A stretch of DNA of 64,000 bases from IMG/VR virus record IMGVR_UViG_3300033148_003055, positions 17,559 to 81,558 of that record, one strand, 5' to 3'. The position numbers and the translations under genes are program-made. The DNA is from a virus. The notes below the pieces were generated by a model. The model saw only the letters and a program-made list of their open reading frames with translations. It searched no databases and was not told the DNA's origin. Of this stretch, positions 11,498 through 63,656 are shown piece by piece (position 1 is the stretch's first letter; each line of letters opens with the position of its first letter).

Positions 11498-11574
11498 TGG
11501 TAGCGGGAGCAGGATTCGAACCTGCGATCTCCGGCTTATGAAACCGGTGTGCTAGACCACTGCACCATCCCGCC
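11498..11574 (-). tRNA. tRNA-Met(CAU)
   Basis: 77 nt including encoded CCA. Acceptor GGCGGGA/TCCCGCT with a G1-U72 wobble, D arm GTGC/GCAC, anticodon loop TTCATAA, T arm GCAGG-TTCGAAT-CCTGC, discriminator A. A CAU anticodon could also be a lysidine-modified Ile tRNA. Confidence 0.85.
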
Positions 11575-11587
11575 CGCTACTCTCCAA

Positions 11588-11661
11588 TGGGGTGACCGGT
11601 GGGGGACGATCCCACGTCTGCTGGTACACAGCCAGCTATTCTTCCGTTGAACTACGGCCAC
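11588..11661 (-). tRNA. tRNA-His(GUG)
   Basis: 74 nt with CCA. Acceptor GTGGCCG/CGGTCAC, anticodon stem GCTGG/CCAGC with loop CTGTGTA, discriminator C as expected for His. The T loop (ATCGTCC) lacks U54 and A58. The base before G1 is A, so the usual encoded G-1 is absent. Confidence 0.8.
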
Positions 11662-11669
11662 TATTAAGG

Positions 11670-11761
11670 GTCCTCGACCAGGATTCGAACCTGGATTACC
11701 GGCGGACCGGTGTTCCGACCTACCGCCGTCGCGCGCAGCACGGCTATTGGAAGACCGAGGA
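11670..11761 (-). tRNA. tRNA-like element, class II size, anticodon not assignable
   Basis: Acceptor arms TCCTCGG/TCGAGGA and a perfect T arm (CCAGG-TTCGAAT-CCTGG) are clear, and a hairpin ACCGG-TCCG-CCGGT could be a long variable arm. The D and anticodon arms do not fold canonically, and no CCA follows. Degenerate tRNA or an unusual Leu/Ser/Tyr-type molecule. Confidence 0.4.
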
Positions 11762-11774
11762 CCATTCTCTTCTC

Positions 11775-11849
11775 TGGCGCCCTGACGGGGTGTCGATCCC
11801 CGCTCTCCCGCTAGACAGGCGGGTGTTCTGGCCGATGAACTACCAGGGC
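11775..11849 (-). tRNA. tRNA-Asp(GUC)
   Basis: 75 nt with CCA. Acceptor GCCCTGG/TCAGGGC, D arm GTTC/GAAC, anticodon stem CCCGC/GCGGG with loop CTGTCTA, T arm CGGGG-ATCGACA-CCCCG, discriminator G as in Asp tRNAs. U54 is replaced by A. Confidence 0.88.
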
Positions 11850-11861
11850 GCGCTGTGTATC

Positions 11862-11937
11862 TGGCAGGGCAGGAGGGATTCGAACCCCCAATCGCCCGGT
11901 CCGTAGCCGGGTGCCTTATCCGTTGGGCCACTGCCCC
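11862..11937 (-). tRNA. tRNA-Arg(ACG)
   Basis: 76 nt with CCA. Acceptor GGGGCAG/CTGCCCT, anticodon stem CCCGG/CCGGG with loop CTACGGA, T arm GGGGG-TTCGAAT-CCCTC, discriminator G. A34 presumably becomes inosine to read CGN codons. Confidence 0.9.
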
Positions 11938-11939
11938 GA

Positions 11940-12015
11940 TGGTCGGTGGGGGAGGATTTGAACCTCCGCCTTCACGCTTATCAGGCGCGTGCTCTGACCC
12001 CTGAACTACCCACCG
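11940..12015 (-). tRNA. tRNA-Ile(GAU)
   Basis: 76 nt with CCA. Acceptor CGGTGGG/CCCACCG, D arm GTTC/GAGC, anticodon loop CTGATAA, T arm GGAGG-TTCAAAT-CCTCC, discriminator A. Only two bases separate it from tRNA-Arg. Confidence 0.9.
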
Positions 12016-12026
12016 ACTCGTCGTAC

Positions 12027-12114
12027 TGGAGGAAGGCGGAGGACTTGCACCCCACCCCGTGAAGGGCGAACTGTTTTCTAAACAGGCCCGGCACGCTTGA
12101 CCGGTTCGCCTTCC
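12027..12114 (-). tRNA. tRNA-Ser(AGA), class II (tentative identity)
   Basis: 88 nt with CCA. Acceptor GGAAGGC/GCCTTCC, D arm CCGG/CCGG, anticodon loop TTAGAAA (AGA), long variable hairpin CCC-TTCAC-GGG. The T loop (TGCAAGT) and discriminator (U) are atypical, so amino acid identity is less certain than the class. Confidence 0.65.
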
Positions 12115-12122
12115 AGTTACTA

Positions 12123-12198
12123 TGGCGGGCCGCACAGGGGTCGAACCTGCACCCTCCTGATTTGGAATCAGGCGCTCTACCCTCTGAGCTTCCGACCC
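12123..12198 (-). tRNA. tRNA-Trp(CCA)
   Basis: 76 nt with encoded 3' CCA. Acceptor GGGTCGG/GCGGCCC with a G-G mismatch at 7-66, D arm GCTC/GAGC, anticodon stem CCTGA/TCAGG with loop TTCCAAA, T arm GCAGG-TTCGACC-CCTGT, discriminator G. Confidence 0.85.
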
Positions 12199-12206
12199 TC
12201 GGACGC

Positions 12207-12282
12207 TGGACCGGACGGAGGGACTTGAACCCTCACCTCCAGCATGGCGAGCTGGCGTGCAGCCGTTGAACACCACGCCCGG
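12207..12282 (-). tRNA. tRNA-Gly(GCC)
   Basis: 76 nt with CCA. Acceptor CCGGGCG/CGTCCGG, anticodon stem CCAGC/GCTGG with loop TCGCCAT, T arm GAGGG-TTCAAGT-CCCTC, discriminator U. Position 33 is C rather than U, as in the portal-embedded tRNA-Gln. Confidence 0.85.
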
Positions 12283-12293
12283 TCGAATACTTT

Positions 12294-12369
12294 TGGTGGA
12301 GACGGTCGGAATCGAACCGACCACACGGACCTTGCAAGGGTCTGTCGCCCCCTTGGAACATGCGCCCCC
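12294..12369 (-). tRNA. tRNA-Ala(UGC)
   Basis: 76 nt with CCA. Acceptor GGGGGCG/CGTCTCC contains the G3-U70 wobble that identifies Ala tRNAs, and discriminator A fits. Anticodon loop is CTTGCAA; T arm GTCGG-TTCGATT-CCGAC. The junction between the D and anticodon stems is one base short. Confidence 0.82.
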
Positions 12370-12380
12370 ACTCTCGACTA

Positions 12381-12456
12381 TGGTAGGACTGGTGGGCTTC
12401 GAACCCACAACCGTCAGATTAAGAATCTGCTGCTCGTCCACTTGAGCTTCAGTCCT
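12381..12456 (-). tRNA. tRNA-Lys(CUU)
   Basis: 76 nt with CCA. Perfect acceptor AGGACTG/CAGTCCT, D arm GCTC/GAGC, anticodon loop TTCTTAA, T arm GTGGG-TTCGAAG-CCCAC, discriminator A. Confidence 0.9.
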
Positions 12457-12464
12457 CTCGTTCC

Positions 12465-12557
12465 TGGTTGGGCCGCCTGGACTTGAACCAGGAACCTCCC
12501 GATTTCGGGTGCTCTGCCTCGCGAACTGGTACCCCAGCCGCTCTGAACTACAGCGCC
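12465..12557 (-). tRNA. tRNA-like element with deleted anticodon loop (probable pseudo-tRNA)
   Basis: The 3' half is tRNA-like (CCTGG-TTCAAGT-CCAGG, then CGGCCCA-A-CCA). The 5' side offers two poor acceptor partners: TGGGGTA at 12536 and GGCGCTGTAGTTC at 12557. The would-be anticodon arm CCCGA-AA-TCGGG has only a two-base loop. It sits in the regular spacing of the cluster, so it is probably a decayed tRNA. Confidence 0.4.
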
Positions 12558-12566
12558 TTCGTATCT

Positions 12567-12641
12567 TGGTCGGCGTGGCAGGGATCGAACCTGCGACGTC
12601 CTGCTCCCAAAGCAGGCCCCCTACCGCTGGGTCACACGCCG
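12567..12641 (-). tRNA. tRNA-Pro(UGG)
   Basis: 75 nt with CCA. Perfect acceptor CGGCGTG/CACGCCG, anticodon stem CCTGC/GCAGG with loop TTTGGGA, T arm GCAGG-TTCGATC-CCTGC, discriminator A. Its 5' ten bases overlap the 3' end of the upstream small CDS. Confidence 0.9.
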
Positions 12642-12862
12642 ACGATCATGTCCCCGGTCCTCCCGCACGCAGGGCAGACGACAGCGTAGAAGCTCGACGT
12701 CTGCCCAATCTGCAGGCGACCGTCCACGTAAAGCATCGGCGCACCACATCCGGTCTTACTGCACAGCACCCCGGCCTCCCTCTTTGTGGCCTCCTCTTGG
12801 GCGTCCTTCGCCCGCCTCATCGCCGCTCGGTTGTGGTCCGCCAACGTTTCCATCTCACCCAT
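12632..12862 (-). CDS. Small zinc-ribbon protein inside the tRNA cluster
   Basis: 76 residues from ATG at 12862, with GGGGAAG upstream. A helical N-terminus precedes LCSKTGCGAPM and CPACGRTG, a likely zinc site. It lies between tRNA-Thr and tRNA-Pro and overlaps the latter. Function unknown. Confidence 0.55.
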   Translation of the reverse strand: MGEMETLADHNRAAMRRAKDAQEEATKREAGVLCSKTGCGAPMLYVDGRLQIGQTSSFYAVVCPACGRTGDMIVGV

Positions 12863-12877
12863 GTCGCTTCCCCTATC

Positions 12878-12952
12878 TGGAGCCGGCGGAGGGTCTCGAA
12901 CCCCCGTCTGCACTTTACGAGAGTGCTGCTAAGCCAACTCAGCTACGCCGGC
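12878..12952 (-). tRNA. tRNA-Thr(CGU)
   Basis: 75 nt with CCA. Perfect acceptor GCCGGCG/CGCCGGC, anticodon stem GCACT/AGTGC with loop CTCGTAA, T arm GGGGG-TTCGAGA-CCCTC, discriminator U. Confidence 0.9.
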
Positions 12953-17527: not shown

Positions 17528-18196
17528 TCACCTAATCGAAGCTATTCGGTAGTCGAAAACGACCGGAAGCCACCGATCTTCAGTCGCTTCCAGGTCTTCG
17601 GCGAGCTCGATTCCTGGTGACATTCCGTCTTCCTGGTACACCATTCGGTTGGCGGAGATCATTTCGATGTCGTGATCGTCATAAATTTCACCGAGCGCCG
17701 CAACAAATGCTTTGCTCATCCCGGCCCAAAAGATGATATGTGGGTTCAGGTCCGTCGAGAATTTGTGGGTGCCATCCGAGTCGATGCCGGCGTCGTCTAA
17801 CTCCCTCGCCATCTCAACGAACGAGACGCCAGTCCCCATTCTCCGGAAGAGTTTCAGTAGTACCTTCTTCGCCATCTGGGCAGCTGTCAATACTCGCATA
17901 AACAACGGCTGTGCAACGACGGCAACGCTACCATCGTACACACTTTCCAACCACAACAAGTACTTCTTGTCATCATCGTCAAGCCTGAACCACTCCCCTC
18001 TTGCCCTCTTCTCTTTGAACCTCCAGTGGAGATCGGTCTCGATATCGTACTCGAAGAGCATCCACAAGCGCAGTTCCTGGGGCTGTGCCCCCTGCAAGTT
18101 CCTAAGCCTGCGTGTGACGTTTGCCGTCTTCCCTATCTTACAAAACCCCGTCCCAACCTGCTCGATCACGTAGGTGAGCATGACGTCGTCCCCCAT
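17528..18196 (-). CDS. GIY-YIG-like protein (T5orf172 / MUG113 type)
   Basis: 222 residues from ATG at 18196 (alternative ATG at 18181). N-terminal LTYVIEQVGTGFCKIGKT, then TRRLRNLQGAQPQELRL and HWRFKEKRARGEWFRL are the standard blocks of T5orf172 GIY-YIG domains, often homing nucleases. About 120 further residues have no recognised domain. It is the last gene before element A. The leader upstream contains a strong hairpin. Confidence 0.72.
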   Translation of the reverse strand: MGDDVMLTYVIEQVGTGFCKIGKTANVTRRLRNLQGAQPQELRLWMLFEYDIETDLHWRFKEKRARGEWFRLDDDDKKYLLWLESVYDGSVAVVAQPLFMRVLTAAQMAKKVLLKLFRRMGTGVSFVEMARELDDAGIDSDGTHKFSTDLNPHIIFWAGMSKAFVAALGEIYDDHDIEMISANRMVYQEDGMSPGIELAEDLEATEDRWLPVVFDYRIASIR

Positions 18197-53817: not shown

Positions 53818-54807
53818 TCAGAGCTGACCTGCTCGGCCGCGCGAATCCGGGCGGTTCACCTGGGCGAGGATTGCGCGGATCGCGGGCCCGACTGGGAGGT
53901 TTACGAGTCCCGGGCATCCGGCCTGCCGGCAGACGTCCGCGTCCCAGCCGACGGCGCGTTGGTAGTGGCACGGCGCGGTGCAGCCGCCCTCCCGTTCGAC
54001 GGGCTCGGCCTGGACGACCAGGGCGTCGGGATAGTGCTTGCAGATCAAGCGGCCGTCCGTCGGGCCGAACACCGACACGCTCGGCGTCCGTACCGCCGCC
54101 GCCATGTGGAGCATCCCCGAGTCTGCGGTCACCATCACGTCCGCCGCGCTGGCGGCGTAGGCGAGGTGCTCCTGCTGGAGCTCTACGAGTTGGGGGACGT
54201 TCGTCCCGGCGACTTTGCAGAGCCCCACGAACACCGGCTCCAGACCGCCCGCCTTCAGAACGTCGGCGAGTTCCTTCCACTTTTCGAGAGGCCATGTTCT
54301 GGCCCGGCAGGTCGCGTGGGGTTGGAGCATGACGACGGGGCGCCGGGTGTCGACTCTTGCCGCGGCGATCATCCCGCGACCGAAACCATACTGCTCACGG
54401 GTGATCCCGATGAACTGGCACTCCGCTTCAGACACGGGGAGTCCGGCCGCCGCAAAGAAGCAGTCGAGCCGGTCCTTGGTCGGGCGCCCCTTCGTCTCGA
54501 CCTCGTGGTCCCATCCCGGGCAGAACATGTTGACGTACTTGTCACGTCGCCCGCCCCTTGCGAAGTACTCCCGCTCGCGGACGCCCTCCTCCCAGTTGGC
54601 CTTACGCTCATACCGATTATTCCACCTTATAGAGGTAGGGATAGGCCAGGCCTTGTCGACGCCAGCAACCATCTCTGCGAACGGTGCGTAATAGGAGAGG
54701 GTGAAGGCATCGACCTGCCAGCCGGCCTTCTGGAGCTTACGCGCGACCGCCGCGCAACGCAGAACATCACCCAGGCCGCCCCCTTCTCTACAAATCGCTA
54801 GGCGCAT
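53818..54807 (-). CDS. GT9-family glycosyltransferase (heptosyltransferase-like)
   Basis: 329 residues. N-terminal GGLGDVLRCAAVARKL (about 10-25) and the C-terminal VTADSGMLHMAAAVRTPSV with SVFGPTDGR (about 228-250) are GT9 signatures; ADP-sugar use is typical of the family. The last gene of the tail operon, 20-base overlap with the HNH gene. It may glycosylate the tail or alter the host surface. Confidence 0.82.
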   Translation of the reverse strand: MRLAICREGGGLGDVLRCAAVARKLQKAGWQVDAFTLSYYAPFAEMVAGVDKAWPIPTSIRWNNRYERKANWEEGVREREYFARGGRRDKYVNMFCPGWDHEVETKGRPTKDRLDCFFAAAGLPVSEAECQFIGITREQYGFGRGMIAAARVDTRRPVVMLQPHATCRARTWPLEKWKELADVLKAGGLEPVFVGLCKVAGTNVPQLVELQQEHLAYAASAADVMVTADSGMLHMAAAVRTPSVSVFGPTDGRLICKHYPDALVVQAEPVEREGGCTAPCHYQRAVGWDADVCRQAGCPGLVNLPVGPAIRAILAQVNRPDSRGRAGQL

Positions 54808-55459
54808 AACGCTCCAAGATTTCCTTCGCCCACTTCACCATGTCGGAGACTCGCTGGCCGGGGAAGTGAGCGTCCCGTAGGCAGAGCTCGAGATTCTCTA
54901 TTCGGTTGTTACTCCGTATTCCGTTCTTATGATGGACTATCTCTTTTACGGTCAAGTAACGCCCGAGGGATTCTTCCATGACTAACCGGTGCTCTTGCAC
55001 GTAATTGTTGACCGCGTTTGGGTGCTCAGGACGATTGAGATAAACATACCCGTGATCGACTTTTCTTCCACCTGCCCAGGCGGGCCGGCACTTGCCTGAC
55101 GCTCCACAACTCCTGGTCTCGCCCTTAAACAACGAGTGTGCCGCGATGACTTTTTCAACTCCGCAGTCACACCTACAAAGCCAAGTCGCACTTCTATCTT
55201 TGTTGATGCCAACACGTTTCAGAACCAACAGCTTCCCGAAACGATTCCCTGTGATGTCGCGAGCGCGTACCGCGCGAACGCATCCACAGTGGGTGCTTGC
55301 ACCTTTCCTTAGAGCATTCCCGCGAACGAGCTTCTCTACTCCACAATCGCATCGGCACCACCACGCCGGTCCGCGGTTGAGCACCCCACGTCGCTCGAGG
55401 ACCGTCCATTTACCAAACTTTTTCCCGGTCAAGTCGATGTACGTGCCCGGTCTTGCCAT
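54788..55459 (-). CDS. HNH endonuclease with zinc ribbons
   Basis: 223 residues. Two repeats of about 55 residues, each with CRCDCGVEK and a following SCG/HCGC (about 30-65 and 88-123), precede an HNH_3 module: YVQEHRLVMEESLGRYL, VHHKNGIRSNNRIENLELC. Probably a free-standing homing nuclease inserted between radical SAM and GT9 genes. Confidence 0.85.
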   Translation of the reverse strand: MARPGTYIDLTGKKFGKWTVLERRGVLNRGPAWWCRCDCGVEKLVRGNALRKGASTHCGCVRAVRARDITGNRFGKLLVLKRVGINKDRSATWLCRCDCGVEKVIAAHSLFKGETRSCGASGKCRPAWAGGRKVDHGYVYLNRPEHPNAVNNYVQEHRLVMEESLGRYLTVKEIVHHKNGIRSNNRIENLELCLRDAHFPGQRVSDMVKWAKEILERYAPSDL

Positions 55460-55468
55460 CTGAGTCTC

Positions 55469-56836
55469 CTACGGGCAGCACCCCTCGGTTTTGATACCGA
55501 TGAACCGCTTGACCTCGTCAGGCTCGAGCTCTGACAGAATCCAGAGCGCGTTCTCAATCCACATCTTCTTGATCGCACACTCCACCGGGTGAGGTTTCGT
55601 GAGCGGGTATCCACCGACCAGGGAATACTCGCGACACCCGCCCCCGCACACCCACCGCAGATCACAGTCCGAGCATCCATCCCTGGCGTAGAATCTGTTC
55701 TCCATCCACTTGCACCGGTCTGCCTCGCGCAGACCGTCCCAGACATCACCGATCTTCGTAGGGCCCTCGCGGTGACAGGCGAAGACGTTGCCGTCCGCGT
55801 TCACCGTGACGATCCCGACGCCAGCCCCGCACTCCGTGCAAGCGAACTGCTGAACGGCTAGTCGCCGAACCATATGCTCCATCTGCCGAAAGCCGGCCTT
55901 GTTCCCGTTCTTGATCCGACGGACGACCCACTCAGCGGCATTGTCGTACTGCTCCCTGAACTGACCGACGTTGTCCTCAGTGATGGCTAGGCCGTGCCCC
56001 TCCACCAAGGCGGCGCACCCGTCTTCGGTCAGGTTGACCGGCTCCACCGATACGCCGTCGGCCAGGCCCTCGTCGCAAAGTCCGTTCAGGTACTCAAGAC
56101 GATCTACGAGGTCGACGCCTTCACCCGTGAACGTCCCGCGGAGCGTAATTCCTTTGACCCCATCGAGGCCCTTCAGGTTTTTAAGGCCTTTGAGTACAGC
56201 GGCATGCGATCCGGAACCATCAGGAAAAACCCGGTACTTGTCGTGGTCCTTCGCATCGCCGTCTAGGGAGACGATAAAGGAGAACTTGTGCTCAGAGAGC
56301 CAACGGGCCTTGTCCGGGTTGAGCAATACACCGTTGGTCGTGACATGGAATTGTGCTCCGCAACCTCTCTGGGCCGCAAGCATTTCAACGGTCGCCACAA
56401 TCTCCTGCAGCCGACGCCAGGCTACGAGAGGTTCACCCCCGAAGAAGGAGATTCGCATGGGCGGGTTCCGGTCTGATTTTGGGTTGAAGGGGAAAAAGTT
56501 AAGCGCGCGTCGGGCGACACGCAACGGCATAGTCGGGAACTCATGATCGGGATTGTAGTTGCGGACGAAGCAATAGGAGCACCTCAGGGGGCAACCATGC
56601 GTCACGTTGAAGACGACCTGTCGGACGAAGCCCTTCTGGTTCCCATTGTACTGCGGTTGGAAATCGCACGGAGCGGGGTAGCGGTCCTCAATGACCTCCG
56701 CCGCGAGGAGAGAATTAGCGTCGATCACTAATGACTTGCCCCGCACCGTACATTCGTAAAGTCTCGGTGCGCTCACCGGGACTGTCTTGATTCCCTTCGG
56801 CCCGTCTCCATAACCTTCTAAGTTGAGTCTGCGCAT
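55469..56836 (-). CDS. Radical SAM / SPASM peptide maturase
   Basis: 455 residues from ATG at 56836, with GCGAGGAGGACAGG upstream. Radical SAM motif CPLRCSYC (Cys82, 86, 89), SFFGGEPL (about 130-137), and a SPASM region with CTECGAGVGIVTVNADG, FACHREG and CSDCDLRWVCGGGCREY for two further Fe-S clusters. The N-terminal YECTVRGKSLVIDANS resembles maturases of Cys-rich peptides. It lies 25 bases downstream of a tail protein ending with 27 cysteines, which is the obvious substrate. Confidence 0.9.
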   Translation of the reverse strand: MRRLNLEGYGDGPKGIKTVPVSAPRLYECTVRGKSLVIDANSLLAAEVIEDRYPAPCDFQPQYNGNQKGFVRQVVFNVTHGCPLRCSYCFVRNYNPDHEFPTMPLRVARRALNFFPFNPKSDRNPPMRISFFGGEPLVAWRRLQEIVATVEMLAAQRGCGAQFHVTTNGVLLNPDKARWLSEHKFSFIVSLDGDAKDHDKYRVFPDGSGSHAAVLKGLKNLKGLDGVKGITLRGTFTGEGVDLVDRLEYLNGLCDEGLADGVSVEPVNLTEDGCAALVEGHGLAITEDNVGQFREQYDNAAEWVVRRIKNGNKAGFRQMEHMVRRLAVQQFACTECGAGVGIVTVNADGNVFACHREGPTKIGDVWDGLREADRCKWMENRFYARDGCSDCDLRWVCGGGCREYSLVGGYPLTKPHPVECAIKKMWIENALWILSELEPDEVKRFIGIKTEGCCP

Positions 56837-56861
56837 CCTGTCCTCCTCGCTAGAGTTCTCA

Positions 56862-59582
56862 TTATTCGAGTCCCGTCTGGCACTGCCCGGCCTCGCACTC
56901 GACCTCACAGTTACCTTGACACTGGCACTGGCACGTGATGACGCATGACTCCCCGCCTCCGCACCCCTGATCGGAGCAGGCGCACTTAGCCTGGTCTTGC
57001 GTCTCGCATCCAGCCTGGCACCCCGGTTCACATGCATCGGTGCAACTGCTTTGGCAAGAGATTATACACGGAGTATTGCATGAGGTCTCAAGCGCGGTCT
57101 CGGTGCCCGTCGTCGAGCATCCCCAGAGGTCCCCCGTCTCGACCCACTCGCAGTCGTCCGCCATCGCCGCTGTTGCGCAGATCAGCTCTGCCGCGGTAAC
57201 ACAAGTTAGGCTGCACATTCCCTGGGCCGCCGTCTCGCATACCCCCGAGCACGCAGACTCCTGCATCGACGTCTCACACCCGCCCGTCTCACAGAACGCC
57301 TGACACGAGTCCTTGTCCCACCCCCACCAGCCGTTCGCCTTGTAGGTGATCTCGTCCATCTGACCGTCTTTGCCGACGCCAGGGGTGTGGACGACCTCTA
57401 GGATGGTGACCTCAGCGTTGGTCCCGGCGTAGTTGGCGACATCAAGCAGGAGGGTGTCGTTGCGCTGGAGCTCGATCGTGTCCAGGTAGTCCTTCCACTC
57501 GTAGATCGGCAGGACCTCCTTCAGGCGATTGAGCCAGAAGTTCGCAATCGTCTGGACCTGCGGCCTAGACGTCACCGCCCAGCAGTTCATGTCGAGCTCT
57601 TTGCGCCCGAACGCGGCCTCCGCCGTCGCGTCGGTCACGACCAGTTCGTGCTCTTCGTTCTCCTGCATCCAGGTCGCCCGGACCCCGGTGCGAACCTCGG
57701 ACTCGAAGTCGATGCGGGACTTGACGAAGGAGTCCATGAGGCGCTTGTTGTCGGTGATCGTCGCGACGCTGGACTGCGGACCGTTGACGAGCCAGCGAAG
57801 GAACGCCACGCCGTCGTCCCAGTTGATCGACGTCCGGCACTGGAAGGCGAGGTCCTGAGCGATCTGCATGAGCTTGCCTGGACGTGTCAGGGAGAACCCG
57901 AAGACGAAGCCCTCCATCCGCCCTTCGGCGTCGGTGAAGGAGGTGTCGTCGGTCTCCCCGGCGCTCACACCTCCGACCGTCTCGAGGAAGTCCTTGATGA
58001 TGAGGGCCGGGTTGGTGATCACGGTCCCGGAGCCGTCACCGCTATCGTCGATCCCGGCGATGTCCACGAAGAGATCGTCGCTCCCGAAGTCGTACAGACC
58101 ATTGAGGGCCGGGGGGAGCCCGGTGAAGGTTATCGTCGTGCAGTTGTGCCCGAGCTCGGCGGAGAACTGGCTGTCGTTCAGGTCGACCGCGAACATGCTC
58201 GGCTCGATTACCGCCCACCCGTCCGTCTCGTTGCCGATCGCGCCGGAGACCTGAGACGGCGGGGTGAGCCCGGGGTCGACGCCTTCTGCGACAACGAGCT
58301 GTCCTGGCAACATGACCTGAAGTCTGGGCGCCGCCCCGAAGTTCATGAAGCCGTACGACCCGGCGGCGAGGCCGTCCATGTCATCCAGCATCATGTTCCG
58401 TGCACGCCGCTTCCCGTGCCCGAACACCGCGTCCACCCGTTCGCTGGGGTAGTCGTTGACAATGTAGACGTACTCGCCCAGCACCTCGAAGACCTGCTCG
58501 CCTTCCTGATGTGGGGTCGCCTTCGTGACGATGAGGGCGCCGGTGGCCGACGGGACATGCAGGACCATTCCACAGCCGAAGAGGTCGTCTGAGGCGACGT
58601 CGTCGAACTCCCCGACCCACCCCTGGTAGTAGAAGGGCATGTGGACTTCGATCTCGCCGCCCGCCGTCGAGCGGAGAATGCGCCGGGTCTGCCAGCCGAG
58701 TGTGCCGTCGTGCCCCTCGACCTGAATCTTGAGGAAGTAGCCGACGTACTGGCCGTCGACGCCAGTGAAGTTCGTCGCGAAGACGCGGGGGTTGGCGGCT
58801 GTGCCGGAGATGGAGCCGTTGTCAATCGTAGCGCCTCTGGCGGTCGGGGTGAAGGCGCGACCGGTGAAGGTGCCCGTGATGTGCTCGCGCCCGACGCGGA
58901 TCGTGATCTCTGTCGGGTCCTGCGTGAAGTCCTCGCCGCCCTCGATGTAGAACGTCTCGCTGGTGTCGGTGCCGCGAATCTCGTTGAGCAGGCGCCCGCG
59001 CTTCCCGCCCTTTGCCATGACCGTCGGTACCTTCTTCTTGTTCCCATAGACGATCGGGACCATGCGCCCCTCGTGGGCGTTGAGTACGTCGGGGAAGTCG
59101 TCCTTGATGACGAAGTTGGCGAAGTCTCGGTCGTAATGGGAGCCCATGTCGACGACGTCGAACTGAAGCTCGCGCCCGTCCTCGACCCACTGCATCGGCC
59201 CTGCAATCGTTCCCTTGAAGATGGTCGTCAGGTCAGCCTCGACCAGGCCGTCGAAGTATTGGTAGATCGTGACCGTCTTGTTCTCGAGGTCGACCGAGTT
59301 GAGGTTGTCGTGCAGGGCGAGGTCGTTGTCCATGAGGCGGATGCTGACGTCGCCGACCGACGGCTTCGGGTGAAGCGACGTCTTGGCGTAGATGCGTCCC
59401 CAGGAGTTGACGCGGGCCTCCGCGTTGTCCCAGGTCGACGCGTCCCCAGTTCCGATGGTCTGGTCCGAGTACCACTTCGTCCCGACGGCGCCGCCCCATT
59501 CCACCTTGACGATGTTGATGGGCTTGGTGCCCTTGGTGAGGTTCTTCTTCGTCGTGAAGTCGCCTGTTAGTGTGCGGGCCAT
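56862..59582 (-). CDS. Tail/baseplate hub-like protein with CxxxC-rich C-terminal domain
   Basis: 906 residues. The first 750 look like a tail-tip or baseplate hub protein: KPINIVKVEWGG, LHPKPSVGDVSIRLMDND, GRMVPIVYGNKKK, and later a region with receptor-contact type strands. Residues 759-906 hold 27 Cys in C-x3-C spacing (12 pairs), with Gln, Glu, Thr and Gly between, unlike the rest. A radical SAM maturase follows. The domain may be crosslinked into thioether-stabilised fibre or form disulfides. Confidence 0.75.
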   Translation of the reverse strand: MARTLTGDFTTKKNLTKGTKPINIVKVEWGGAVGTKWYSDQTIGTGDASTWDNAEARVNSWGRIYAKTSLHPKPSVGDVSIRLMDNDLALHDNLNSVDLENKTVTIYQYFDGLVEADLTTIFKGTIAGPMQWVEDGRELQFDVVDMGSHYDRDFANFVIKDDFPDVLNAHEGRMVPIVYGNKKKVPTVMAKGGKRGRLLNEIRGTDTSETFYIEGGEDFTQDPTEITIRVGREHITGTFTGRAFTPTARGATIDNGSISGTAANPRVFATNFTGVDGQYVGYFLKIQVEGHDGTLGWQTRRILRSTAGGEIEVHMPFYYQGWVGEFDDVASDDLFGCGMVLHVPSATGALIVTKATPHQEGEQVFEVLGEYVYIVNDYPSERVDAVFGHGKRRARNMMLDDMDGLAAGSYGFMNFGAAPRLQVMLPGQLVVAEGVDPGLTPPSQVSGAIGNETDGWAVIEPSMFAVDLNDSQFSAELGHNCTTITFTGLPPALNGLYDFGSDDLFVDIAGIDDSGDGSGTVITNPALIIKDFLETVGGVSAGETDDTSFTDAEGRMEGFVFGFSLTRPGKLMQIAQDLAFQCRTSINWDDGVAFLRWLVNGPQSSVATITDNKRLMDSFVKSRIDFESEVRTGVRATWMQENEEHELVVTDATAEAAFGRKELDMNCWAVTSRPQVQTIANFWLNRLKEVLPIYEWKDYLDTIELQRNDTLLLDVANYAGTNAEVTILEVVHTPGVGKDGQMDEITYKANGWWGWDKDSCQAFCETGGCETSMQESACSGVCETAAQGMCSLTCVTAAELICATAAMADDCEWVETGDLWGCSTTGTETALETSCNTPCIISCQSSCTDACEPGCQAGCETQDQAKCACSDQGCGGGESCVITCQCQCQGNCEVECEAGQCQTGLE

Positions 59583-60239: not shown

Positions 60240-63200
60240 TTACCATGCCACTCCCTCAGAGTGGTCAAACAGAGTCCCGTAGTTTGTCGTTCCCCCGGCC
60301 TGACTAGCGACTAGAACGTCGCCGTCATCGCCCTTGCCCGTGCCGTCGGACATCCAGATAACATACTCGCCCTCTGCCGGTTCCGCCGGGTCAGTAGCCC
60401 TCTCGTACCCGGCCATCCCCTCGCGGTTCCAAAGGTAGCCGTTCACGAGTAGCGACTGGTCTGCGGTGGCCGCAGCGAACACCCCGTAAACCAACGCCTT
60501 CACCCGACCGTCAGCCTCGTTCGTGCGCTTGAGAACATCGATGAACAGTTTGGCACCGGCCGTCTCATAGTAGCCCGCCTGGTAACCGATCATTACGCCG
60601 TAGCTGTCAGTCACCAGCGAGTATCCAGAGTCCGCTCCGATCAGTGTGTTGTACTCGCCAGTCGTAAGAGCCCCGCCAGCGGAAGCACCAATCGCGACAT
60701 TGATGTCGCCAGTAGTCAGAGCGTCCATCGCTGACCAGCCTATAGCAACGTTGTATCCCGCATTAGTAAATGCGTTATACATCGCCCGGTAACCTATGGC
60801 GATGTTACTATGGCCGGTCGCGCCGGCAATGGCACCGAGTCCTGCCTGATAGCCAATGCATATGTTGTAGTTACCGGACCCAATATCGCGCCCCGCATTA
60901 TGTCCGACGTAAACACCACCGGCCCCGGTACTGTCTCGGCCAGTGGCCGCACCAACACCAATCGCGAAAGCCGACGTAGCTGCCTGACCGGCCCCGTAGC
61001 CGATGAATACATTATAAGTTTCAATCGTTAGCGCTCCACCGGCATTGTGCCCCGCCATGAGGTTGTAATTGCCAGTGGTGATCGCATCGCCAGCACTAAA
61101 CCCAAGTGCTAGATTGCTATCACCCTCGGTGACCGATAGCAGCGCGTGATAGCCTCCGGCCCAATTATACTGACCATCAGTAAGAGCAAGTAGCGCCGCC
61201 GTTCCCGCCCCCCAGTTACCGTTTCCGGTAAGTGTGAAGTTTCCCGCGAGTGAACCCATGAACAGATTATTGGTCCCGTAGGTGTGGAACACCCTATCCC
61301 CAGCCTGCGTGATATGCCCAGTCGTTGACGAAGTAGCCTCAAGCTCCAAGGTCGCCCCGCTGAAGGCAATCGTCCCGGCAGCGTTAAAGGTAATGAGCTC
61401 GTTGCCGTCGATCCCTAGCGTACCGCCGTCACCCACGAAGAGGTTCGGCACCACAATGTCCTGGTTGAAGGTGACCGCCCCGGTTGTGTCGAAAGCAAAC
61501 GCACCGCCATCCGAGTTGATGGCGTCAATCTGTAGCGTGTCGCCGTCGTGGACGTGGGCCTGCGGGGCGTTATCCCCCGTCACGTCGGCGCCCGCCGCAA
61601 TGGCGTCCAGCTTCGTAATCTGGGCAGCGGTCGCGACTCCCTTCTGCGCGTCCGTTGCATCCTGAATATCATCCGTGCCGTCAACGTGTTCGGCCGCATG
61701 TGCAGTAGGGTTCTGATTGTCTGCCAACTCTCCAGATAGGCCGGCGACGCTCATTTCGTCGCCCCCTGCGTTTTCATGAGACGCCGCGTGAGTCGCGGGC
61801 GGCGCCCACTTGAGGCCAGACGCCTCTCCTGAATCAGCGGTGAGAACATCATCGTCATCGCCGACATTCAAGACCTCGAGGGTGTCATCGGCCGACGCTC
61901 CAAGAAGATCGCCCTTCGCCGAGAAGTCTGACTCTAACAAGGTTCCCGCAGGAGCGGCAGGAGGAGCCCACTTCAGACCAGAGGCTTCTCCTGAGTCTGC
62001 GGTGAGAACGTCGTCGTCATCCCCGACGCCGAGGAGCTCCGGGGTATCATCGGCACTCGCAGAGATCAAGTCGCCCTTCGCGTCGAGATCGGCGTCCATC
62101 AGGGCACCGGCTCCTGCGACGTTCGTTGCGTCGGTTACGTCCGCCAATGCTTCGATGCCATCGAGCTTCGTAATCTGGACGTCGGTTGCAAGGCCGGTCA
62201 GCGCGTCGGTGGCGTCTTGCGTTGCCTCGGTGTGCTCCGCGCTGGTCAGGTGGTAGTATTCGTCCGCCGTCCCGCCCTGCAGACTGCCGAGATCGTTGTG
62301 GACCGTGACGGCGCTGGTAGCGAACGGGGTCTCGAACGGGGTCTCTATCGAGGCGTTGGCCAAGTCCGTCTCGCTCTTCTGTACGATGATCTTGCAGATG
62401 GGCAGCGAGAACTTGTCCGCCAAGTCAGGCAACGTGGCTGGCATCGTAGCAAGTTCCGCCTGTGCGGCGGTATAATTGCCCTGGCCGTAGACCAGCATGA
62501 GGTGGCCGTCGAAGTCGATGAAGCCCCAGTGGACGGCGTAGCGGTTCGCCGTCAGGGCGTGCAGCGTACCGGAGTCGTCGTCGTAATGTTCCACGTCAAC
62601 GTCAACGACGCCGGGGACTTCCGTCCAATCCACCCCGCCGTCTCGGTAGAACGAGCGGAACGTCCTGTCGTGTATGTGCCCGTCAACGGTGGCGTCAGGG
62701 ATCGCCTCCTCAACCTCAATGTCAGTCTCGTCATCGCCTACGTCATACGTCGCGCCCTCGACAGTGTAGACGCCGTCGTTGCCGGTAGACCCATGCACCA
62801 GGATGGACTCGCCATGCACGAAATGGTCTGCGATATCGCCAGATACCATGAACAGCTTATTGCCCTGATCGAGGTCAGTGATGGCTTCGCTGTTGCCGAT
62901 GTCGAAAGCGTCAATGGTGAACGGCGTGATGACCGCGTAGAGCGACCCAGCCGTCACCTGCAGCGCCAAGTCCTCATGCGCGCTCTTGCTGGTCAGCAGG
63001 CCAGACGCTCGGACGATGCCGACCGTGGACCGCAAGTACCGCAACAGCGTCGTGCCGAGTTCCGGCAGGCGCTGCCCGCCGTTCAGGATGTGTATGTGGT
63101 CATTGCCGTTCTTGTAGACCCGGCCCAACCCGATCTCGGTGCGCAGGTTAATCGTCGTCTGGTCGCCTGTCTTGGCAAAGACCGGAGGGGCTGCGTAGTT

Positions 63201-63656
63201 GACGTATATGAAGTTGACCCCGGCGTCCAGTGCGAACGAATCCTCCTTCGCTATGTCGAAAAACTGCGTGGTGCCAACTGCGCTGTCGGCCGTCTTTATC
63301 ATGCCAACGCCGGCCGAGATGTCTACGGTCCCGTCCTGCGCGGCGGCCTCCGTGATCTCGCAGCCCTCCACGATGACCGCACCCTGCGTCTTGTTCACCC
63401 AATCGTGGATGCTGTAGGTGCCGGACAGGTCGCTGAGGAGTAAGTCAACGAAGGTCGGTGTGCTGCCGGGCCCCAGCAGCTGATTGTGGACGGTCCTTTG
63501 CCAGACGGCGGCGCCGGTCGTGTTGTCGGTGCAGACCCACTCCTCAATAAAACTGGACGCGGGGTTGGTGACGATCACCCGACTGCCGACGAAATAGTTG
63601 TTGGCGCGGTCGTGGTTGACGCCGGGTCGACTTTCGCTGAGGCTTGTAAGCGCCAC
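60240..63656 (-). CDS. Tail fibre with internal duplications and YadA-type beta-roll repeats
   Basis: 1138 residues. N-terminal half has fibre-like strands. About 520-620 hold two nearly identical copies of a unit (AKGDLISASADDTPELL and AKGDLLGASADDTLEVL, each with SGEASGLKWAPPA). From about 790 on, repeats of NxxIGYxAG type (NVFIGYGAGQAA; NICIGYQAGLGA; NIAIGYRAM; NVAIGWSAM) form a trimeric beta-roll as in YadA adhesins. It would contact the host receptor. The end (GTLFDHSEGVAW) may be the tip. Confidence 0.85.
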   Translation of the reverse strand: MALTSLSESRPGVNHDRANNYFVGSRVIVTNPASSFIEEWVCTDNTTGAAVWQRTVHNQLLGPGSTPTFVDLLLSDLSGTYSIHDWVNKTQGAVIVEGCEITEAAAQDGTVDISAGVGMIKTADSAVGTTQFFDIAKEDSFALDAGVNFIYVNYAAPPVFAKTGDQTTINLRTEIGLGRVYKNGNDHIHILNGGQRLPELGTTLLRYLRSTVGIVRASGLLTSKSAHEDLALQVTAGSLYAVITPFTIDAFDIGNSEAITDLDQGNKLFMVSGDIADHFVHGESILVHGSTGNDGVYTVEGATYDVGDDETDIEVEEAIPDATVDGHIHDRTFRSFYRDGGVDWTEVPGVVDVDVEHYDDDSGTLHALTANRYAVHWGFIDFDGHLMLVYGQGNYTAAQAELATMPATLPDLADKFSLPICKIIVQKSETDLANASIETPFETPFATSAVTVHNDLGSLQGGTADEYYHLTSAEHTEATQDATDALTGLATDVQITKLDGIEALADVTDATNVAGAGALMDADLDAKGDLISASADDTPELLGVGDDDDVLTADSGEASGLKWAPPAAPAGTLLESDFSAKGDLLGASADDTLEVLNVGDDDDVLTADSGEASGLKWAPPATHAASHENAGGDEMSVAGLSGELADNQNPTAHAAEHVDGTDDIQDATDAQKGVATAAQITKLDAIAAGADVTGDNAPQAHVHDGDTLQIDAINSDGGAFAFDTTGAVTFNQDIVVPNLFVGDGGTLGIDGNELITFNAAGTIAFSGATLELEATSSTTGHITQAGDRVFHTYGTNNLFMGSLAGNFTLTGNGNWGAGTAALLALTDGQYNWAGGYHALLSVTEGDSNLALGFSAGDAITTGNYNLMAGHNAGGALTIETYNVFIGYGAGQAATSAFAIGVGAATGRDSTGAGGVYVGHNAGRDIGSGNYNICIGYQAGLGAIAGATGHSNIAIGYRAMYNAFTNAGYNVAIGWSAMDALTTGDINVAIGASAGGALTTGEYNTLIGADSGYSLVTDSYGVMIGYQAGYYETAGAKLFIDVLKRTNEADGRVKALVYGVFAAATADQSLLVNGYLWNREGMAGYERATDPAEPAEGEYVIWMSDGTGKGDDGDVLVASQAGGTTNYGTLFDHSEGVAW

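Follow-up and report, generated by a model that had tools for sequence, protein, structure and literature searches.

A radical SAM/SPASM enzyme linked to cysteine arrays on phage tail proteins: a putative modification cassette for the tail tip

Why does a tailed phage encode a radical SAM/SPASM enzyme directly behind a tail gene that ends in a run of cysteines? The question is raised by a locus in IMG/VR virus record IMGVR_UViG_3300033148_003055 (81,558 bases), of which positions 17559–81558 were analyzed (64,000 nucleotides; hereafter the window). The record encodes a portal, a major head protein, a DNA polymerase, a primase, and a helicase, which confirms a tailed phage. Genes for a predicted tail hub, the radical SAM/SPASM enzyme (P0001), an HNH endonuclease, and a GT9 glycosyltransferase lie in that order on the minus strand. 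An earlier note, made from the DNA alone, placed the enzyme gene 25 bases after a tail gene whose last 148 residues contain 27 cysteines, mostly in C-x3-C pairs, and proposed that the phage crosslinks its own virion protein. The spacing is confirmed (25 nt from the hub stop to an ATG at 56836), exact counts and shuffling agree on the cysteines, and the interval named there, 55469–57308, corresponds to the enzyme gene plus the cysteine tail. Linkage of enzyme and array is strongly supported by comparison with other phages. The favored reading, with a probability of about 0.6, is a phage-encoded cassette for post-translational modification of the phage's own tail tip by radical crosslinking and probable glycosylation.

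IMG/VR was scanned with an enzyme alignment, a hub alignment, and a CETx-repeat DNA pattern, and genome contigs and Planctomycetota genomes were also scanned. Compared records and loci carry L-numbers. With near-copies merged and the window included, 27 distinct records have a close relative of the enzyme. A search for other phages with the gene pair, as proposed in the earlier note, found both genes in 25 of the 27, where a cysteine-array or cysteine-rich tail protein is encoded mostly just upstream and on the same strand. The remaining two are short fragments: L121 is 6.9 kb long, and the L102 contig begins 280 bp before the enzyme. Enzymes of these cassettes share 32–58% identity with P0001. 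Hub homologs are found in 12 of the 27 records, each with an array that begins right after the conserved body; in others of the enzyme-bearing records, the arrays belong to tail proteins of a second family. The largest arrays have 131 cysteines in 615 residues (L006) and 133 in 613 (L115), and looser arrays are present in L107, L113, L119, and L122. The scans reject a chance or one-off gene pair.

Genome-contig loci found with the same enzyme profile lack an array in 78 of 80 cases. The two positive loci, L022 and L023, are contigs of planctomycete metagenome-assembled genomes that bear the phage hub itself. Starting from the array (CETx pattern), the enzyme is present in all six records that continue past the array (L002, L006, L011, L013, L017, and L018), and the remaining three records break off before the enzyme position. 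An apparent array without an enzyme in L012 is explained by a contig that starts about 570 bp before the point where the enzyme gene begins in the near-identical L011; the contigs of L015, L003, L004, and L314 are likewise cut off. Starting from the hub, with cysteines not used in the search, array-bearing hubs are accompanied by the enzyme in L002, L110/L111, L312, L318, and L319. Two further array hubs are on broken-off contigs (L003 and L314), and the L313 contig ends inside the hub. Three array-less hub homologs, L315 (7.7-Mb contig), L316 (1.9-Mb contig), and L325 (444-kb contig), lack both a radical SAM gene and a GT9 gene within about 8–10 kb. Homologous tails without a radical SAM gene, which the earlier note regarded as evidence against its proposal, were thus absent among array hubs on continuing contigs.

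Array-bearing hubs in planctomycete genome assemblies (L312, L314, L318, and L319) hint at hosts, and may be misbinned phage contigs. Near-identical phages differ by a swapped segment beside the array genes (L321:1-2443 versus L011:1041-1994), with a different tail-fiber-like gene in one.

A scan of IMG/VR for C(x3C)8 listed matches that were mostly low-complexity and out of frame. Among the matches listed, at least seven are real-looking arrays with a nearby radical SAM gene (L222, L224, L225, L233, L279, L285, and L295). L209 has radical SAM genes on its 292-kb contig and none shown beside its array, L248 has a very cysteine-rich open reading frame (ORF) and no radical SAM gene in 31.7 kb, and human-gut phage records with weaker radical SAM matches (H3, H5, H6, H9, and H12) had no cysteine arrays on inspection. 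Arrays also accompany other radical SAM enzymes on more distant viral contigs (L126, L127, L128, L151, L155, and L166; L285, L295, L225, and L233). Arrays at these more distant loci are of the types C-[N/D]-x-x, C-x-C, or C-[S/T/G]-x-x, which suggests, as a lead only, several enzyme-acceptor pairings in which the acceptor type varies with the enzyme.

In the hub of the window, residues 759–906 contain 27 cysteines versus 4 in the first 758 residues. C-x3-C pairs occur 13 times, whereas 4.7 would be expected when these residues are shuffled (p≤0.0005), and C-x7-C is also enriched (11 versus 4.5 expected). CC and C-x2-C have zero occurrences in the 148-residue array. Glu or Gln directly follows 15 of the 27 cysteines (expected 6.5, p=0.0002) and stands three residues ahead of a cysteine in 12 cases (expected 6.2, p=0.005). 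The array repeat is C-[E/Q]-x-x, which is more specific than C-x3-C. Across 1224 C-x3-C units in the group, 50% have Glu and 31% have Gln directly after Cys (81% together), and entropy at this position is 2.08 bits versus 3.43 and 3.51 bits at the next two, which are loosely T/S/V (+2) and G/S/A/T (+3). The nearest relative, L002 (61% identity overall), keeps 25 of the 27 tail cysteines versus 40 of 121 other tail residues, which argues that the role of the cysteines is not due to chance; 478 of 748 residues are kept in the hub body. Cysteine codons of the array are mixed (19 TGC and 8 TGT), which indicates selection on the protein and not a DNA repeat.

Glu or Gln is thus placed one residue past a cysteine and three before the next, and this grammar suggests these residues as thioether acceptors. 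Known enzymes of the group join cysteine to side-chain carbons of Asp or Glu: PapB does so with 0–6 residues between the partners (PMC9413430), QhpD does so within a protein subunit (PMC7876137), and NxxcA links Asn20 to Cys23, with the acceptor at Cys −3 (PMC8326336). Assignment of Glu/Gln as the crosslink acceptor is tentative.

By sequence, the tail protein matches only weakly to PHROG 31, "central tail fiber J" (E 8e-4). An AlphaFold2 (AF2) model built from 15 sequences has a predicted local distance difference test (pLDDT) score of mostly 80–95 in the body; residues 754–906 score <50 and are predicted to be disordered in the unmodified form. Foldseek matched the model to T5 tail tip chain 7zhj_b (E 1e-19), which from its length we take to be the T5 hub pb3, to lambda J (8xcg, E 2e-12), and to the DT57C, gene transfer agent, and Mu hubs. 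The predicted fold, shared with T5 pb3 and lambda J over the first ~750 residues, identifies the protein as a siphophage tail-tip baseplate hub of the T5 pb3/lambda J type and bears out the tail-hub assignment of the earlier note. The C-terminus of lambda J carries the receptor-binding part, and the array, at the end of a hub of this fold, is therefore predicted to sit in the same place. To our knowledge, neither T5 pb3 nor lambda J has a cysteine ladder or a dedicated modifying enzyme. A tblastn search of named phages with the hub returned no matches, and no cultured phage with the system is therefore known to us.

P0001 is the sole radical SAM gene in the whole record. It matches Pfam Radical_SAM (2e-12) and has both the radical SAM motif CX3CX2C (C82/C86/C89, invariant in 19 sequences) and the SPASM cysteine set (336, 354, 388, 391, 397, 401, and 420, each ≥90% conserved), including CX2CX5CX3C at C388/C391/C397/C401. 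NCBIfam scores are 187 bits for PapB (cut-off 340), 180 for the SCIFF maturase (cut-off 425), 162 for QhpD (cut-off 453), and 163, also below cut-off, for an ScfB-like orphan model. Membership in the PapB, SCIFF, QhpD, or TIGR04115 families was rejected on these below-cut-off scores. Among solved structures, CteB is nearest in sequence (7e-44; profile 1e-71). CteB is also the best Foldseek match (5wgg/5why, E 7e-26, TM 0.75) of the AF2 model (pLDDT 88.9), ahead of the anaerobic sulfatase maturases. All seven SPASM cysteines align one to one with those of CteB, and an extra C333 in P0001 is non-conserved. The auxiliary cluster I (aux I) of CteB has an open site that a substrate cysteine can occupy (PMC6231123), and P0001 probably has one too. 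Among 42 enzymes placed in a tree, those of the phages cluster together (support 98), separate from the SCIFF-like enzymes of bacteria and from the QhpD-like L036 (support 89). By sequence, P0001 is in a separate phage clade near thioether-forming maturases and outside each curated family. The thioether-type enzyme of the earlier note thus gains kinship to thioether maturases in sequence, fold, and cluster ligands, and reaches no curated family cut-off.

Inteins (Hint/intein-splicing domains, some with HNH or LAGLIDADG) are present inside phage radical SAM genes at L120:8809-11397, L124:8911-11451, and L117:7720-10149. The L120 intein interrupts the gene at a conserved SPASM cysteine (FAC/CHRE), and the gene after the radical SAM gene in L124 (L124:11461-13155) also bears an intein. 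Mobile elements here favor conserved cassette motifs. Some array loci encode two or three radical SAM/SPASM-like genes in tandem (L006:3482-4606, L130, L142, L160, L127, L149, and L166).

Of 26 records with sequence flanking the enzyme, 22 have a GT9 gene beside or close to it. The GT9 gene mostly follows the radical SAM gene directly, often with an overlap of 3–39 nt, and none of 78 bacterial radical SAM comparison loci has one. The radical SAM and GT9 genes are fused in a single 803-aa ORF in L107 (L107:8878-11289). L117 has two GT9 copies, and L007 has a divergent copy upstream of the enzyme. The protein of the window belongs to GT9 (Glyco_transf_9, 63.5 bits versus a cut-off of 22) and, among NCBIfam models, matches only lipopolysaccharide heptosyltransferase ones, below cut-off. 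Residues D14, R170, D229, and H234 are invariant in 20 sequences, and four cysteines in the C-terminal lobe are conserved (C276, C280, C293, and C298; C-x3-C-x12-C-x4-C). TibC, of the TibC/AAH type, is a protein heptosyltransferase for repetitive surface adhesins and requires a four-cysteine iron finger for assembly and activity (PMC4358343). Its spacing, C-x2-C-x15-C-x11-C, differs, and no TibC model or structure is among the GT9 matches; the resemblance is therefore a likeness and not family membership. GT9 is proposed as the third cassette member, and the chance that it glycosylates the array is judged to be even. The earlier note did not notice this gene, and given so conserved a neighbor, the crosslinking it proposed is probably only part of the modification. 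L007 also carries a cytidylyltransferase-like gene; the cytidylyltransferase fold is used in ADP-heptose synthesis.

These results bear on the favored reading, a modification cassette for the tail tip, with unequal force. The enzyme very probably acts on the array. That the phage crosslinks its own virion protein, as the earlier note held, gains from the identity of the hub, the kinship of the enzyme, and their joint travel across phages; from these we infer that thioether chemistry is the probable modification. The hub would be synthesized with a flexible, disordered C-[E/Q]-x-x array. Before the reducing conditions of the host cytoplasm are lost, the radical enzyme would bind the array, hold a substrate cysteine on aux I, and abstract a hydrogen from an acceptor side chain, most likely that of the Glu or Gln beside a cysteine. 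A Cys-to-carbon thioether would then close, and the cycle would repeat along the array. GT9 would then add sugars, perhaps on Ser or Thr of the repeat. The product would be a stiff spike, coated with sugar and proof against proteases and reduction, assembled into the distal tail tip, and the modified tip may have a role in adsorption. A bolder proposal, made with less than even confidence, is a widespread class of phages in which up to ~130 cysteines per array are knit into a thioether ladder and then coated by a glycosyltransferase, giving a spike without a known virion counterpart.

Several findings weigh against this reading. P0001 scores far under the cut-off of every named maturase family in NCBIfam, and its N-terminal ~65 residues are predicted to form strands alone and to lack the helices that a complete RiPP recognition element (RRE) would have. 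The putative substrate is a C-terminal array without an evident leader peptide. The array of this phage is less regular than those of relatives, with two Glu and five Gln at +1 in 13 units. Several contigs are fragments. The three array-less hubs are more distantly related, and the missing enzyme could reflect lineage as well as function.

The enzyme could modify the array in another way, through epimers, C-C or C-O links, oxidation, or another change of Glu/Gln, and leave the cysteines to a separate role such as disulfides formed after lysis. SPASM enzymes carry out many reactions, P0001 is outside every curated thioether family, and an open site on aux I fits binding of a substrate cysteine without proving bond formation. 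Disulfides are common outside the cell. This explanation is nevertheless unlikely, as profile, fold, and tree all place P0001 closest to enzymes that form thioethers in Cys-rich or Cys/Glu substrates, and the cysteines are the most conserved tail residues (25/27).

Glycosylation could instead be the main activity, with GT9 decorating Ser/Thr or Cys of the array as TibC does and the radical SAM enzyme serving the glycan or preparing the acceptor. GT9 is nearly as faithful a neighbor as the radical SAM enzyme and is once fused to it, its four conserved cysteines are placed in the C-terminal lobe like the TibC iron finger (PMC4358343), and Thr and Ser are common at +2 and +3 of the units. The conserved array positions are, however, Cys and Glu/Gln and not Ser/Thr, and L023 and L008 have the radical SAM enzyme and arrays with no GT9 found (L008 has another glycosyltransferase-like gene and an FkbM methyltransferase), which makes this account quite improbable. 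Least credible is an array that binds metal or forms disulfides with an unrelated auxiliary radical SAM gene beside the hub by chance. Cysteine-rich repeats can bind metals, and phages carry other kinds of radical SAM genes; against this, the association recurs across divergent enzymes and two tail-protein families, array-less hubs lack the radical SAM gene, and the metal motifs C-x2-C and C-C are absent from the array.

The chemistry of the proposed cassette has known relatives; the new part would be its application to a virion protein together with a linked glycosyltransferase. Freyrasin maturase PapB, the best NCBIfam match, is also a SPASM radical SAM enzyme acting on Cys and Asp/Glu repeats, tolerates Cys-Xn-Asp with n = 0–6, and accepts Glu (PMC9413430). 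Its substrate is a short leader-core peptide, whereas the cassette would act on the C-terminal end of a virion protein of 906 aa, and no release of a small product is expected; the locus likewise lacks the short leader-core precursor of ranthipeptides. CteB of the SCIFF (thermocellin) system is the best structural match and has the same seven SPASM cysteines, but P0001 is in its own clade, has a reduced N-terminal domain (this region is longer in several of its relatives), and has no 45-residue peptide substrate. QhpD puts several Cys-to-Asp/Glu thioethers into QhpC, a structural protein subunit and not a secreted peptide (PMC7876137); QhpC differs as a small subunit with a 28-residue leader, no array, and no glycosyltransferase. 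Bacterial CXXX-repeat systems (TIGR04115) are alike by model name, as radical SAM enzymes with CXXX-repeat targets. P0001 scores 82 bits versus a cut-off of 350 for that model, the target here is a phage tail hub, and a search of the open literature returned no paper on those systems, which are known by annotation only. The same literature (5.4 million open papers, with subscription papers and preprints outside its scope) contained no description of radical SAM chemistry on a virion protein with a linked glycosyltransferase, in agreement with the earlier note, which knew of no phage system of this kind.

Radical SAM maturases in this group are otherwise associated with small peptides and, in the case of QhpD, a protein subunit, and a virus that employed one to finish its own particle would put this chemistry to a new use. 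If the reading is true, it provides a new route to a stable fiber under conditions that bar disulfides, and it would directly explain, in molecular terms, the many cysteine-ladder tail proteins that so far lack an explanation. A natural enzyme that may crosslink arrays of >100 sites is of interest for peptide and material engineering.

Features of the locus are listed in Table 1. A longer radical SAM ORF starting at ATG 57037 was rejected; it would overlap the tail array, and such a start is unlikely because the M-x-x-LN N-terminus of the shorter form is conserved in relatives. The HNH gene is probably a mobile insertion between the radical SAM and GT9 genes, as these are adjacent in relatives.

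Table 1. Positions in the window of the putative cassette and neighboring features
Feature	Coordinates	Strand	Basis
Predicted tail-tip baseplate hub (T5 pb3/lambda J-like), 906 aa	56862..59582	−	ORF with stop within coordinates; PHROG 31; AF2 and Foldseek
Hub C-terminal cysteine array, residues 759–906, putative cassette substrate	56865..57308	−	Cysteine counts, shuffles, conservation, grammar
AGGAGG Shine-Dalgarno-like site in 25-nt gap between hub and radical SAM genes	56842..56847	−	Sequence
Radical SAM/SPASM enzyme, 455 aa	55469..56836	−	Pfam, NCBIfam, conserved cysteines, AF2 and Foldseek
HNH endonuclease	54788..55459	−	Pfam HNH_3 4e-11; many PHROG HNH families
GT9 (heptosyltransferase-like) glycosyltransferase, four conserved cysteines	53818..54807	−	Pfam Glyco_transf_9 2.5e-17; conserved beside radical SAM gene

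Upstream of the hub, a spike-like 1138-aa protein is encoded at 60240–63656; its C-terminal end is conserved at the matching position in L002. Ten tRNA genes are clustered on the minus strand at 11498–12952.

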